Part shown: one piece after another, positions 44 through 35,237 of the stretch
How the letters are laid out: each line of letters starts with the position of its first letter
Position numbering within the stretch: the stretch's first letter is position 1
Assembly: GCA_020851775.1 (NCBI GenBank)
Contig: JADZCB010000023.1
Coordinates: 1-35,237 of the forward strand
From: Gammaproteobacteria bacterium
Lineage (GTDB): Bacteria; Pseudomonadota; Gammaproteobacteria; Ga0077536
Reading direction: 5' to 3'
DNA length: 35,237 nucleotides
Made by a program: the position numbers and the translations under genes
Notes under the pieces: model-generated
Database searches by the model: none
Told to the model about the DNA's origin: nothing
The model's input: the letters and a program-made list of their open reading frames with translations, nothing else

Positions 44-179
44 TTTTTGCCACCGAGAACACCGAGGCGGGTGAATTGCGCTTCACGCGCCAATTCATCC
101 GCGCTCCAAGAACCCACACCGGTGAGCGCGGCACGGCCAACTCATATTCCCTCCGTGTTCCCGGTGTTCTCTGTGGCAA
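44..179. repeat. Intergenic inverted-arm repeat element, copy A
   Basis: Left arm TTTTTGCCACCGAGAACACCGAG (44-66); right arm CTCCGTGTTCCCGGTGTTCTCTGTGGCAA (151-179), whose reverse complement begins TTGCCACAGAGAACACCG. Internal hairpin TGAATTGCGC/GCGCCAATTCA (about 72-97). Shares 23 identical bp with copy B. Confidence 0.75.
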
Positions 180-2112: not shown

Positions 2113-2655
2113 TCAGCGCCAGATCATGCGGGCGAGAACGCCATCACGGTCGACGAATTGATGCTTGAGTGCCGCCGCCGCGTGCACCGCTGCGAGCAGA
2201 CCGGTGCCGTACGCGCAATAGTAATGGACGGCGATGATGAGATCGCGGGTCTGCTCGCCGACCTGCACCAGCACCGGCACCTCGAAGAGCCCATACACTG
2301 GAATGGCCTGGCCCGCGGACGTGGAAATCAGGTAACCCGTGACCGGCAGCAGCAGCATCATCAGAAACAGCAGGCGATGCACCGCGTGGGCCGCCGCCTG
2401 CTGGACGCGTGAAATGGAGCCCGGCAGCGGCGGCGGCCTGGAGACCCGCTGCCACACCAGCATGCACACGGCGAGACCCAGCACCACGAGCCCGAGCACG
2501 CGATGCAGACTCAGCGACTTGTGATACCAGGGATCGTAGTAGGTCAGGTCGACCATCTCCCAGCCGAGCCAGATCAGACCGAGGATCGAGAACGCGATGA
2601 TCCAGTGCAGCAGCTTCGTGACGAGCCCGTAGCGTTCAGGCGTGTTCTTCAGCAT
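2113..2655 (-). CDS. cytochrome b561 family protein
   Basis: 180 aa membrane protein; [62 protein letters not shown] typical of YodB/CybB-type b561. Confidence 0.9.
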
Positions 2656-2721
2656 GGTCGCGACCCCCGATGCCGCTGCAGACGGCGGAGACGGCAGCGC
2701 GCCGTTCCCCGCCGTATGCGC

Positions 2722-4179
2722 TCAGTAGCGGTAATGTTCGGACTTGTACGGTCCGCTGACGGGTATGCCGAGGTACTTTGCCTGATCTTTCGTCAGCACG
2801 TCGAGTTCGACACCAATCTTCGTCAGATGCAGGCGTGCGACCTTCTCATCGAGTGACTTCGGCAGCGTGTACACGCCGGTGCGGTAACTGTCCGCATTCT
2901 GGTAGAACTCGATCTGCGCAATCGTCTGGTTGGTAAACGAGTTCGACATCACGAAGCTCGGATGGCCCGTCGCGCAACCGAGGTTCACGAGCCGGCCTTC
3001 GGCGAGCAGGATGATGCTCTTGCGATTGCCGGTCTCGATGCGATGGACTTGCGGCTTGACTTCATGCCACTTGTACTTGCGCAGCTTCTCGATCTGGATT
3101 TCGCTGTCGAAGTGGCCGATGTTGCAGACGATCGCGAGGTCCTTCATCTGTTTGATGTGGCGCTCGGTGATCACGTCGCAGCAGCCCGTCGTCGTCACGA
3201 AGACGTCGCCGATCCGGCACGCGTCGTCCATCTTCATCACCTGGTAGCCTTCCATCGCGGCCTGCAGCGCGCAGATCGGATCGATCTCGGTGACGATCAC
3301 GCGCGCGCCCTGCCCGCGCAGCGACTGGCAGGAACCCTTGCCGACGTCGCCATAGCCGGCGACGACCGCGACCTTGCCGGACAGCATGACGTCGGTCGCG
3401 CGGTTGATCGCATCGACCAGCGAGTGGCGGCAGCCGTACAGGTTGTCGAACTTCGATTTCGTCACCGAGTCGTTGACGTTCATCGCCGGGAACAGCAGTT
3501 CGCCGCGCTCATGCATCTGGTACAGCCGGTGTACGCCGGTCGTCGTTTCTTCGGTGACGCCGCGAATGCCCGGTGCGATGCGCCGGAAACGATCCGGATC
3601 GCGCTTCAGCGACTTGCGCAACTGGTTGTACAGCGCGACTTCCTCGGGATTGCTGCCGGCCGGCAGCGCAGCCCTGGACTGCTCGTACTTGTAGCCGAGG
3701 TGAACGAACAGCGTGGCGTCGCCACCGTCGTCGAGAATCATGTTCGGCCCGAGCCCGTCACCCCAGTCGAGAATGCGATCGGTGAAGTCCCAATACTCCT
3801 CGAGCGATTCGCCCTTGTACGCGAAGACCGGCGTGCCGGCCCTCGCGATCGCCGCCGCGGCGTGATCCTGCGTCGAAAAGATGTTGCAGCTCGCCCAGCG
3901 TACCTGCGCCCCGAGATGCTGCAGCGTTTCGATCAGCACCGCGGTCTGCACCGTCATGTGCAGCGAGCCGCTGATCCGCGCGCCCTTCAACGGTTTGCTC
4001 TTCCCGTATTCCTCCCGCATCGCCATCAGGCCGGGCATCTCCTGCTCGGCGAGTTCGATCTCGGTGCGGCCGAACGCCGCGAGTCCGATGTCCTTGACGA
4101 CGTAGTCCGGGGATGCCGCCTTCTTTGCGCCGCGCGTCGCGCGGCCGTTGCCCCGGGAGCCCGGGTTGCCTCTGCTCAT
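2722..4179 (-). CDS. ahcY: adenosylhomocysteinase
   Basis: ORF extends to 4299 but start [10 protein letters not shown] at 4179 is more plausible; [75 protein letters not shown]-terminal YKSEHYRY. Confidence 0.96.
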
Positions 4180-32517: not shown

Positions 32518-33336
32518 TCAGCGCGGATGCCACAACCCGCGCTTGCGCTCGAGCCATGCAATCCGCTGTTCGAGCGGCGTGTCGACGTATTCCTGCATGA
32601 TTGCGACGGCTTCGTCGGTCAGCATCGTGTGGATGAAGGCGTCGCCTTCGATTTCCAGCCCCCCCTGCAGGTGTACTTCGGATCCTTCGTAGACCGCGCG
32701 CTTGGTTTCCGCGATCGCGACCGGCGACAGCGTGCAGAGTTCTTTCGCGATCTCGAGCGCCCGTGCCCGCGCGTCGTCGGCGAGTTCGTGCACGAGACCG
32801 AGCGCGAGGGCTTCCTCCGGCTTGCAGATCCGGCCGCGCAGGATGAAGTCGATCGCCTTGCCGGCGCCGAGCAGACGCGACAGCCTTTGCGTGCCGCAGC
32901 CGCCGGGTAGGATGCCGAGCGTGACTTCCGGCAGGCCGTAACGGAAATCGCCCCTCTGCGCGATCCGGATGTCGCAGGACAGCGAGGTCTCGAAGCCACC
33001 ACCCATCGTGCTGCCGCTCATCGCGGCGATCACCGGCTTCGGCAGATCGCGCAGGTTCGTCAGTGTCGCGTTGTGCTGATGCAGCCACGAGCGTCCGACG
33101 TTCATCATCAACGCACGGTCGCGCGCGCTCGTCACCAGTTCCTCGACGCTGTAATGCGTGATGAAGCGATCCTTCACGCCGCCGGTGAGGACGACGACCC
33201 GTACCGAGGTGTCGCGCCAGGCCTCGATGTGCCCGGCCAGTTCCCGCATGCCCTCCGCCGTCATGTAGTTCATCGGCGGATTGACCCATTCCGCGGTGAC
33301 GATGCCACCGTCCTGCTTCACCTGCCACTTGGCCAT
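32518..33336 (-). CDS. enoyl-CoA hydratase/isomerase family protein
   Basis: MAKWQVKQDGGIVTAEWVNPPMNYMTAEGMRELAGHIEAWRD...AAMSGSTMGGGFETSLSCDIRIAQRGDFRYGLPEVTLGILPGGCGTQRLSRLLG; N-terminal extension to 33561 is repeat-derived. Confidence 0.92.
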   Translation of the reverse strand: MAKWQVKQDGGIVTAEWVNPPMNYMTAEGMRELAGHIEAWRDTSVRVVVLTGGVKDRFITHYSVEELVTSARDRALMMNVGRSWLHQHNATLTNLRDLPKPVIAAMSGSTMGGGFETSLSCDIRIAQRGDFRYGLPEVTLGILPGGCGTQRLSRLLGAGKAIDFILRGRICKPEEALALGLVHELADDARARALEIAKELCTLSPVAIAETKRAVYEGSEVHLQGGLEIEGDAFIHTMLTDEAVAIMQEYVDTPLEQRIAWLERKRGLWHPR

Positions 33337-33392: not shown

Positions 33393-33552
33393 TTTTTGCC
33401 ACCGAGAACACCGAGAACACCGAGGAAATTTTGCTTGAAGCGTCTCGCGAACGGAGGCGCGTCATCGACGCGACGCCGTAGGCCTCGCTTCGCTTATCGA
33501 TTCTCTTCTCGGTGTTCTCGGTGTTCTCGGTGTTCTCGGCGTTCTCGGTGGC
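33393..33552. repeat. Intergenic inverted-arm repeat element, copy B
   Basis: Left arm TTTTT-GCCACCGAG-AACACCGAG-AACACCGAG (33393-33424); right arm (CTCGGTGTT)x3-CTCGGCGTT-CTCGGTGGC (33508-33552); internal CGCGTC-atc-GACGCG stem-loop (33458-33472). Confidence 0.85.
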
Positions 33553-33584: not shown

Positions 33585-35237
33585 TTATTGCCCGGTCATC
33601 GCCGCCGCCGTTGCCTTTTTCGCCTGCCGCCTGATGTAGTGGTGAATGGCATTCAGATCGGCGTCGGACATTTCCTTGAACTGCGGCATGCCCTGCAGGC
33701 GGCGGCTGCCGCCGATGACGATTTCCTTGAAGGCTTCCGGGTACAGCGGCGCCTGCGAGGCGCGGAGATCCGGCGCGTAGCCGCCGGCGACCGCGCCACC
33801 GCCGTGGCAGCTCGCGCAGTTGCGCGAGAACAGGAAGCTGCCCGTCTCGGCCTGCAGTTCATCGACCTTGAAATCCTCCTGCACCAGCGGCTCGGCGAAG
33901 CTCGGTGGCGGTGCTTTCGGCAGCTTCGTGTCCGCATCGAGGGCGAACACGACGAGCCGGCGCGGATGCAGGCCGTAGCGCCAGCCGTGCTGCGCCGTGA
34001 TCGCGCCGACCATCGACGCGGCCGCACCGCCCCAGCCGGCGAGCAGCGCGACGTACTGTCTGCCGTCGACTTCATAGGTGATCGGCGGTGCCGAGATGCC
34101 GACACCCATGTCGAACATCCACAGCGGCAGGCCGTCCGTCGCGCGATAGGCGACGAGCTTGCCGTCGGTACGACCCTGGAAGACGAGATTGCCGGCCGTC
34201 GTCAACGTGCCGCCATTCCATGTGCCCGGCAGCTTCTGCTCCCATACCTTCTGCTGCTTGACCGGATCCCAGGCGAGCAGGCTCGCCGCATCTATCTTGA
34301 TCGGCAGATCCTCGCGCAGCAGATCGACACCCGGATCGAACGCGAAGCTCGGTGACTTCCACTCCTCCGGCTGCTTGATCGTCTTGTCGGTGAAGTTCGC
34401 CGGCAGATCGTGCTTCGGGATGTAGACGAGCCCGGTGTTCGGATTGAACGACATCGCATGCCAGTTGTGCACGCCGAGCGGCCCGGGCCATACCAGCTCC
34501 TCACCGTCGCCATAGCGCGCGTCCGGATTCTCGACCGGCCGCCCCGTCGCGAGATCGACGTGCGTGGCCCAGCTCACCTTGCCGATCTTCTCGGCCGACA
34601 ACAGCTTGCCGGTCGCGCGATCGATCACGTAGAAGAACCCATTCTTCGGCGCGTGCAACATGGCCTTTACCGGCTTGCCGTCGATCTCGAGATCGGCGAG
34701 CACCATGTCCATGTTCGAGTTGTAGTCCCAGGTCTCGCCGGGCACGGTCTGGTAGTGCCAGGCATATTTCCCGGTATCGGCGTCGAGGGCGACGACCGCG
34801 CACAGGAACAGATTGTCACCGCCGCCGGGACTTCTGATCTTCTGATTCCATGGCGAGCCGTTGCCGGTGCCGATGTAGACGCGGTTGAATTCCGGATCGT
34901 AGGTGAGCCCGTTCCATACCGTGCCGCCGCCGCCGTGCTCCCACCACTTGCCATGCCAGGTCTTCGCGGCCATGGCCTGGGCCTCGTCCTCGAATCCGTC
35001 CGCCGGATTGCCCGGCACGGTGTAGAAGCGCCAGACCTGCTTGCCGGTCGCGGTATCGTAGGCCGTCACGTAGCCGCGCAGTCCACCCCACTCGGTGCCG
35101 CCGTTGCCGATGATCACCTTGTCGTTGAATACCCGCGGCGCCCCGTTGATGAAGTAGGCGAGCTTCGGATCGACCGTCATCACGCTCCAGACTTCCTGGC
35201 CGGTCGTCGCGTCGATCGCGTTCAGACGCCCGTCGCC
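33585..35237 (-). CDS. PQQ-dependent quinohemoprotein (alcohol) dehydrogenase, C-terminal part with cytochrome c domain; truncated at window edge
   Basis: Frame stays open to 35237 (GDGRLNAIDATTGQEVWSVMTVDPK...); AYDTATGKQVWRFYTVPGNP, WDYNSNMDMVLAD; C-terminal haem motif FSRNCASCHGGGAVAGGYAPDLR. Confidence 0.94.
   Translation of the reverse strand, partial: GDGRLNAIDATTGQEVWSVMTVDPKLAYFINGAPRVFNDKVIIGNGGTEWGGLRGYVTAYDTATGKQVWRFYTVPGNPADGFEDEAQAMAAKTWHGKWWEHGGGGTVWNGLTYDPEFNRVYIGTGNGSPWNQKIRSPGGGDNLFLCAVVALDADTGKYAWHYQTVPGETWDYNSNMDMVLADLEIDGKPVKAMLHAPKNGFFYVIDRATGKLLSAEKIGKVSWATHVDLATGRPVENPDARYGDGEELVWPGPLGVHNWHAMSFNPNTGLVYIPKHDLPANFTDKTIKQPEEWKSPSFAFDPGVDLLREDLPIKIDAASLLAWDPVKQQKVWEQKLPGTWNGGTLTTAGNLVFQGRTDGKLVAYRATDGLPLWMFDMGVGISAPPITYEVDGRQYVALLAGWGGAAASMVGAITAQHGWRYGLHPRRLVVFALDADTKLPKAPPPSFAEPLVQEDFKVDELQAETGSFLFSRNCASCHGGGAVAGGYAPDLRASQAPLYPEAFKEIVIGGSRRLQGMPQFKEMSDADLNAIHHYIRRQAKKATAAAMTGQ

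Follow-up and report, generated by a model that had tools for sequence, protein, structure and literature searches.

The window analyzed here, a stretch of 35,237 bp from a gammaproteobacterial genome (here named G000), carries two copies of a hairpin repeat, copy A and copy B (Table 1). Copy B is flanked by a long minus-strand ORF ending at 33585 and by the next minus-strand gene, which starts at 33336. The original prediction had placed it at 33393-33552, between a PQQ dehydrogenase stop and an enoyl-CoA hydratase start, with inverted arms built from a tandem 9-bp unit. The gene context was correct, and the exact arms, the core and the T-run were read in the sequence. The outermost arm pair of copy B is 27 nt long and 96% complementary. 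Spurious ORFs were expected to run through the arms, and a 347-aa ORF crossing them was found, read as ATENAENTENTENTEK. Throughout the genus, genomes carry several related copies of the adjoining PQQ-type dehydrogenase (window 33585-35183; loci L278-L287).

Table 1. Coordinates of the repeat copies in the window and of the gene in the longest copy of G000
Feature	Position	Strand	Basis or remark
T-run, just outside the copy B terminus	33393-33397	none	sequence read directly
Copy B left arm, 27 nt, 3 units: GCCACCGAG-(AACACCGAG)x2	33398-33424	+	direct reading
Copy B core, 83 nt, without own ORF, CGCGTC/GACGCG stem inside	33425-33507	none	direct reading, fold
Copy B right arm, 45 nt, 5 9-bp units: (CTCGGTGTT)x3-CTCGGCGTT-CTCGGTGGC	33508-33552	-	direct reading
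Copy A left arm, 2 units	49-66	+	
Copy A core	67-150	none	
Copy A right arm, 3 units, terminal CTCTGTGGC	151-177	-	
Broken GxxExxY gene, G000	L190 1384-1620 (G000:C198)	-	in-frame TGA

An 18-mer search allowing up to 3 mismatches gave 8 matches in the window against 0.04 expected from shuffles, an approximately 200-fold excess. Of the structured RNA that had been suggested for copy B, the strong hairpin stood (RNA fold -87.8 kcal/mol, z = -7.1; equally stable shuffles 0 of 200), while a known family did not, with 0 Rfam matches for the hairpin at the gathering threshold.

The repeat was predicted to be present throughout the genome. In the draft assembly of G000 (3.42 Mb, 90.6% complete) the 16-mer CACCGAGAACACCGAG was indeed matched 62 + 52 = 114 times with at most 1 mismatch, and the reversed-pattern control gave 0. 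A listing of 53 copies consisted mostly of inverted pairs of ~100-210 bp with GCCAC termini. In an exact 16-mer scan of genome contigs, most of the matches listed were single and unpaired, and only ~14 of 118 loci had inverted arm pairs. The arms comprised 2-5 tandem 9-bp units, each made up of a CRCNRAG core and a free dinucleotide, and the end consensus TTTTGCCACCGAG was found on both sides. Conservation ended within ~4 nt of the outer side of GCCAC; in these positions T was favoured on the left and A on the right. The T-run, with T preferred at about -1 to -4, was the sole flank signal common to the copies; a longer terminus with GCCTGACAGG outside the arms was rejected, as flank information was at noise beyond about -4. 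Left/right unit concordance inside copies was slight and largely reflected subfamily structure. A second arm subfamily, GCCACGGAGGGCACGGAG, was present in G000 (L170, L172, L173, L206), and some of its copies had palindromic outer flanks, e.g. TATATAGCC/GGCTATATA.

The position of the pairs relative to genes was analyzed with a crude GC3-based gene caller in ~388 kb of G002, a congener, together with the window sequence. Only 7 of 27 pair midpoints fell into predicted genes, compared with a gene coverage of 85% (p = 1e-11), and 20 of 27 lay outside genes. This estimate is conservative, since the gene caller miscounts copy B as genic. With dozens of intergenic copies and a GCCAC boundary, the predicted non-autonomous mobile family with its constant GCCACCGAG terminus and variable unit number was supported. 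Copy lengths in G000 and G002 were bimodal, with ~60-290 bp versus one copy at 502 or 530 bp, respectively.

In G002, CACCGAGAACACCGAG was matched 298 times, and in seven other congeners 0 times. This patchy presence fits a mobile family. The gap between purH and purD measured ~560 bp in G000 and G002, where it holds an element, and 22 bp (G001, G003), 79 bp (G005, G008) or 168-177 bp (G004, G006) in genomes without it. The comparison of occupied and empty sites that had been proposed thus yielded empty purH/purD sites in six congeners, and these, together with the patchy presence, agree with the mobile family of inverted arms and variable core described beforehand. In G002, ~8 + 8 host bases lie outside the palindrome at this slot, close to the 22-bp empty form; a target-site duplication was not visible at purH/purD, where the relatives are too diverged for exact junctions. 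An empty site was also sought for copy B, whose neighbours are not conserved in the congeners. In G002 an apparently empty site corresponds to the short copy L159, the neighbour of a probable tatC gene.

The slot of copy B is occupied in G002 by a hairpin whose arms are the same, whereas its core cannot be aligned and its flanks have diverged. Another slot common to both genomes likewise had similar arms, and dissimilar cores and intergenic flanks. Arms that are alike while cores differ at shared slots indicate that arms are held or re-supplied and cores drift. One further slot with different arm subfamilies (L173/L295) was dropped; its downstream sequence does not align.

The longest copy in G000 (502 bp, G000:C198:2378-2879) is the one between purH and purD, and it is the only gene-bearing copy found there. 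It contains a minus-strand gene of the GxxExxY family with one in-frame TGA, which matched TIGR04256 with E = 4e-36 (123.9 bits, cut-off 35). In the same slot G002 carried an uninterrupted GxxExxY gene (125.3 bits against PF13366, cut-off 22) and a different arm subfamily. A TIGR04256 search of 40 relatives identified 7 genes in 6 genomes. Among the nine congeners the gene was found in exactly the two repeat-bearing ones, G000 and G002. All 7 genes were enclosed by inverted arms of 8-9-bp tandem units, the sequences of which differed among the loci: CACGGAGGT, CACGAAGTA, CGCAGAGG and CGCAAAGA. The slots of these elements, identified by eye from sequence, were nuoE/nuoF, purH/purD and trpE/trpG. 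Start codons of GxxExxY genes often lay in or beside an arm (L343 2105-2129, many N-termini), and predicted N-termini therefore partly translate arm repeats (e.g. PQRTQGTQR, RRDAEDAEN).

The link between gene and arms was examined at loci from the relatives and from a phylum sample, with control windows taken from the same loci at a distance of 750-1000 bp. The median best inverted-arm alignment score was 20.75 at GxxExxY genes versus 9.0 in controls, and the score exceeded the 99th percentile of controls at 27 of 32 testable loci (Mann-Whitney p = 4e-18). Y1 transposase loci showed no excess arm score in the same test. Across 249 genomes, 25 had three-unit arms on both strands together with the gene, 6 arms only, 22 the gene only and 196 neither (Fisher 4e-16), a phylogenetically uncorrected value that relatedness inflates; one bacterial family dominates the sample. 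Within the best-sampled family the association held, with corresponding numbers of 24/2/15/22 (p = 2e-5). Some genomes carried a GxxExxY gene without the arm-unit pattern.

Arms also flanked GxxExxY in Bacteroides finegoldii, Bernardetia, Sphingomonas parapaucimobilis and Gemmatirosa, in a Chloroflexota bin (where the unit is CACCGAG itself) and in one viral contig. Gene-bearing copies with arms accordingly extend to Chloroflexota, Bacteroidota, Gemmatimonadota and the viral contig; arms in Treponema were doubtful. On a plasmid of Sphingomonas parapaucimobilis (L310 2495-2923) the element lies between fabD and fabG of a fatty-acid operon. Mobile replicons with the element amounted to the one viral contig and six plasmid records, and the element is hence essentially chromosomal. 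Open-licence PMC text contained no paper that we could find linking GxxExxY, PDDEXK_3 or TIGR02436 to such arms, and no description of the genomic setting of GxxExxY (TIGR04256 / PF13366). Provisionally, we regard the link between gene and hairpin as new.

By profile, GxxExxY (TIGR04256 / PF13366, PDDEXK_3) belongs to the PD-(D/E)XK nuclease superfamily. In 13 homologues the residues H18, G22, G24, E27, Y30, D67, E77, K79, Q91 and Y95 were invariant. D67, E77 and K79 form a D...ExK core that is followed by Q91xxxY95, an arrangement (D...ExK...QxxxY) that is the signature of RecB/Cas4 nucleases; Cas4 profiles were among the weak next-best matches over this region. Solved structures in the PDB gave no significant match, and an AlphaFold model built from two sequences had a pLDDT of 44 and was unusable. 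GxxExxY is therefore predicted from profiles and motifs to be a nuclease-like PD-(D/E)XK protein.

In-situ decay of gene-bearing copies was observed only in another genus, at the g80 locus. Here, an intact gene in arms was present in G063 and a damaged gene in the same intergenic slot in G055. Truncated genes with arms were found in G085, G220 and G196. In G077 the core of an ORF-less hairpin retained a gene relic (49 bp at 94% identity), with similar core relics, recognized by eye, in G160 and G168. G242 had a relic without clear arms, and the element was absent in G047, G059, G081 and G149. This series from intact genes to relics within hairpins indicates that hairpins can descend from gene-bearing copies. 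The short cores of G000, and those in the G002 stretches examined, yielded no gene relics. Together with the bimodal lengths, this suggests that the short form was amplified in trans in these two genomes.

Elements with a gene thus sit between genes at positions where congeners lack an insert, and the arms can persist after the gene has decayed. The reading we favour, and hold to be somewhat better than evenly probable, is that copies A and B belong, as short MITE-like members lacking an ORF, to a fold-back selfish element, the gene-bearing form of which encodes the GxxExxY protein that would mobilise the copies. We infer the mobilising role of the nuclease as follows. The protein would recognise the tandem arms or the cruciform or hairpin they form and would nick or cut there, which could drive copying of the arm-bounded DNA to new sites. 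Short copies would be mobilised in trans in the manner of MITEs. As RNA, the long hairpin may render an insert harmless in operons, probably via RNase III processing as in 23S rRNA intervening sequences (IVS). Since the G000 gene contains an in-frame stop, a further copy would be required for any activity at present.

The main live rival is that the arms themselves are the mobile part and are moved by another enzyme of the host or of an element, GxxExxY being a frequent passenger or accessory factor. We consider it unlikely, though hairpins in genomes without the gene speak for it. Paired arms without GxxExxY were present in G074, G043, G145 and G192; the 99% complete G074 has 14 + 8 = 22 three-unit arms, several of them in inverted pairs, and no GxxExxY match, so that hairpins can occur without the gene or persist after its loss. 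Additionally, genes of the TIGR02436 family of 23S rRNA intervening-sequence proteins, which are four-helix-bundle proteins, lay inside inverted arms in other genomes of the phylum (L246-L274). Their arms consist mostly of 7-bp tandem units (e.g. GTAGGCA; GTAGGCAGTAGGCA) and exceeded the 99th control percentile at 20 of 27 loci (second test 21 of 28, p = 4e-15). This architecture is consequently not tied to one protein. What speaks for a role of GxxExxY itself is the confinement of the repeats to the two gene-bearing genomes within the genus, the strong gene-arm association over the 249 genomes and the negative searches for two other candidate enzymes. The RAYT/IS200-type transposase or reverse transcriptase that had been proposed as mover was not encountered in G000, with 0 matches to Y1_Tnp, and RVT_1 (the criterion for retrons, DGRs and group II introns) was found in neither G000 nor G002.

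We regard it as improbable that the family as a whole is an RNA or DNA structure selected by the host at gene 3' ends, such as a terminator, an mRNA stabiliser or a nucleoid site, although for individual copies a host-selected RNA structure is possible. The very stable hairpin, the strongly intergenic location with mostly convergent or co-oriented neighbouring genes, and arms that stayed conserved in G000 and G002 at a shared slot whose cores and intergenic flanks diverged would all suit such a function. A structure maintained by the host is, however, at odds with its absence from seven congeners, with empty orthologous sites, with the missing Rfam match and with long copies that carry a nuclease-like gene. 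Furthermore, the sequence after the 3' arm is A-rich, not T-rich, which does not correspond to a classical intrinsic terminator.

It is very improbable that the copies are REP/BIME repeats whose mover is a RAYT tyrosine transposase, or that they are MITEs derived from a known IS, despite the short, dispersed, intergenic palindromes and their non-autonomous look. A REP carries a GTAG or CGTC tag at one palindrome end (PMC3733652). The end consensus of the present family has neither, and with no RAYT/Y1 transposase in G000 the REP-like nature proposed earlier was not supported. Y1 genes are as numerous in repeat-free congeners as in G002; 2 of the 3 Y1 loci of G002 are without nearby arms, and at the third the only hairpin is short, separate and over 1 kb distant. 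An expansion of low-complexity or microsatellite sequence with no identity as an element, for which only the variable number of 9-bp tandem units would speak, is refuted by the constant GCCAC terminus, the inverted pairing, the defined boundary, the dispersed copies and the reversed-pattern control of 0, as the original prediction had anticipated.

Compared with known systems, the window family resembles IVS and foldback elements in the way it works and belongs to neither group. IVS with an S23 ORF, as in the 23S rRNA of Coxiella burnetii (PMC4990558), consist of a terminal inverted stem around one small, decaying ORF, are excised by RNase III, spread sporadically and are viewed as selfish. 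Unlike these, the window family lies between genes in many copies, has arms of tandem 9-bp units and carries GxxExxY; a TIGR02436 gene was not found in the search of G000. REP sequences with their REPtrons (RAYT) and TIRtrons (PMC3733652) share the dispersed intergenic palindromes and a less frequent form in which the same repeat flanks a gene, but the window family has arms of tandem units and a PD-(D/E)XK-type protein in place of a Y1/HUH transposase. As in bacterial MITEs, terminal inverted repeats are common to short ORF-less copies and the gene-bearing element, and empty sites were found in relatives (purH/purD, the g80 locus and apparently L159); a known IS transposase and an identified target duplication are lacking. 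Eukaryotic foldback transposons, such as FB of Drosophila and the Tm1 family (PMC3169594), resemble the window family in long inverted ends with short tandem repeats, variable arm length and a variable core, whereas the latter is bacterial, only ~60-560 bp long and has an unrelated protein.

Tentatively, and with less confidence than for the window copies, a widespread and so far undescribed class of prokaryotic selfish elements may be envisaged. Its members would have inverted arms of 7-9-bp units, a single small gene (GxxExxY with 8-9-bp units or the four-helix-bundle protein with 7-bp units) and nuclease-based mobility, and the 23S IVS would be its rRNA-resident tip. Such elements would move themselves and swarms of ORF-less hairpins without a known transposase, recombinase or reverse transcriptase. 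Annotated genes for both proteins occur in genomes across the bacteria, and neither protein has a known role. Their occurrence as the sole gene of hairpin elements, of which ORF-less copies are scattered through the same genome, would give these orphan families a testable function in selfish mobility. For the widespread GxxExxY family the hairpin link probably provides such a role. The class would also account for many CACAGAG/CACGAAG-type hairpins that are dispersed in environmental genomes and would connect ribosomal intervening sequences to a wider group. Movement driven by the nuclease, if real, would amount to transposition that involves no known transposase.

A different arrangement was noticed on a Gemmatirosa plasmid (L311 ~2250-3050), where the GxxExxY gene lies between two complete short hairpins of ~85 bp each and not between simple arms.
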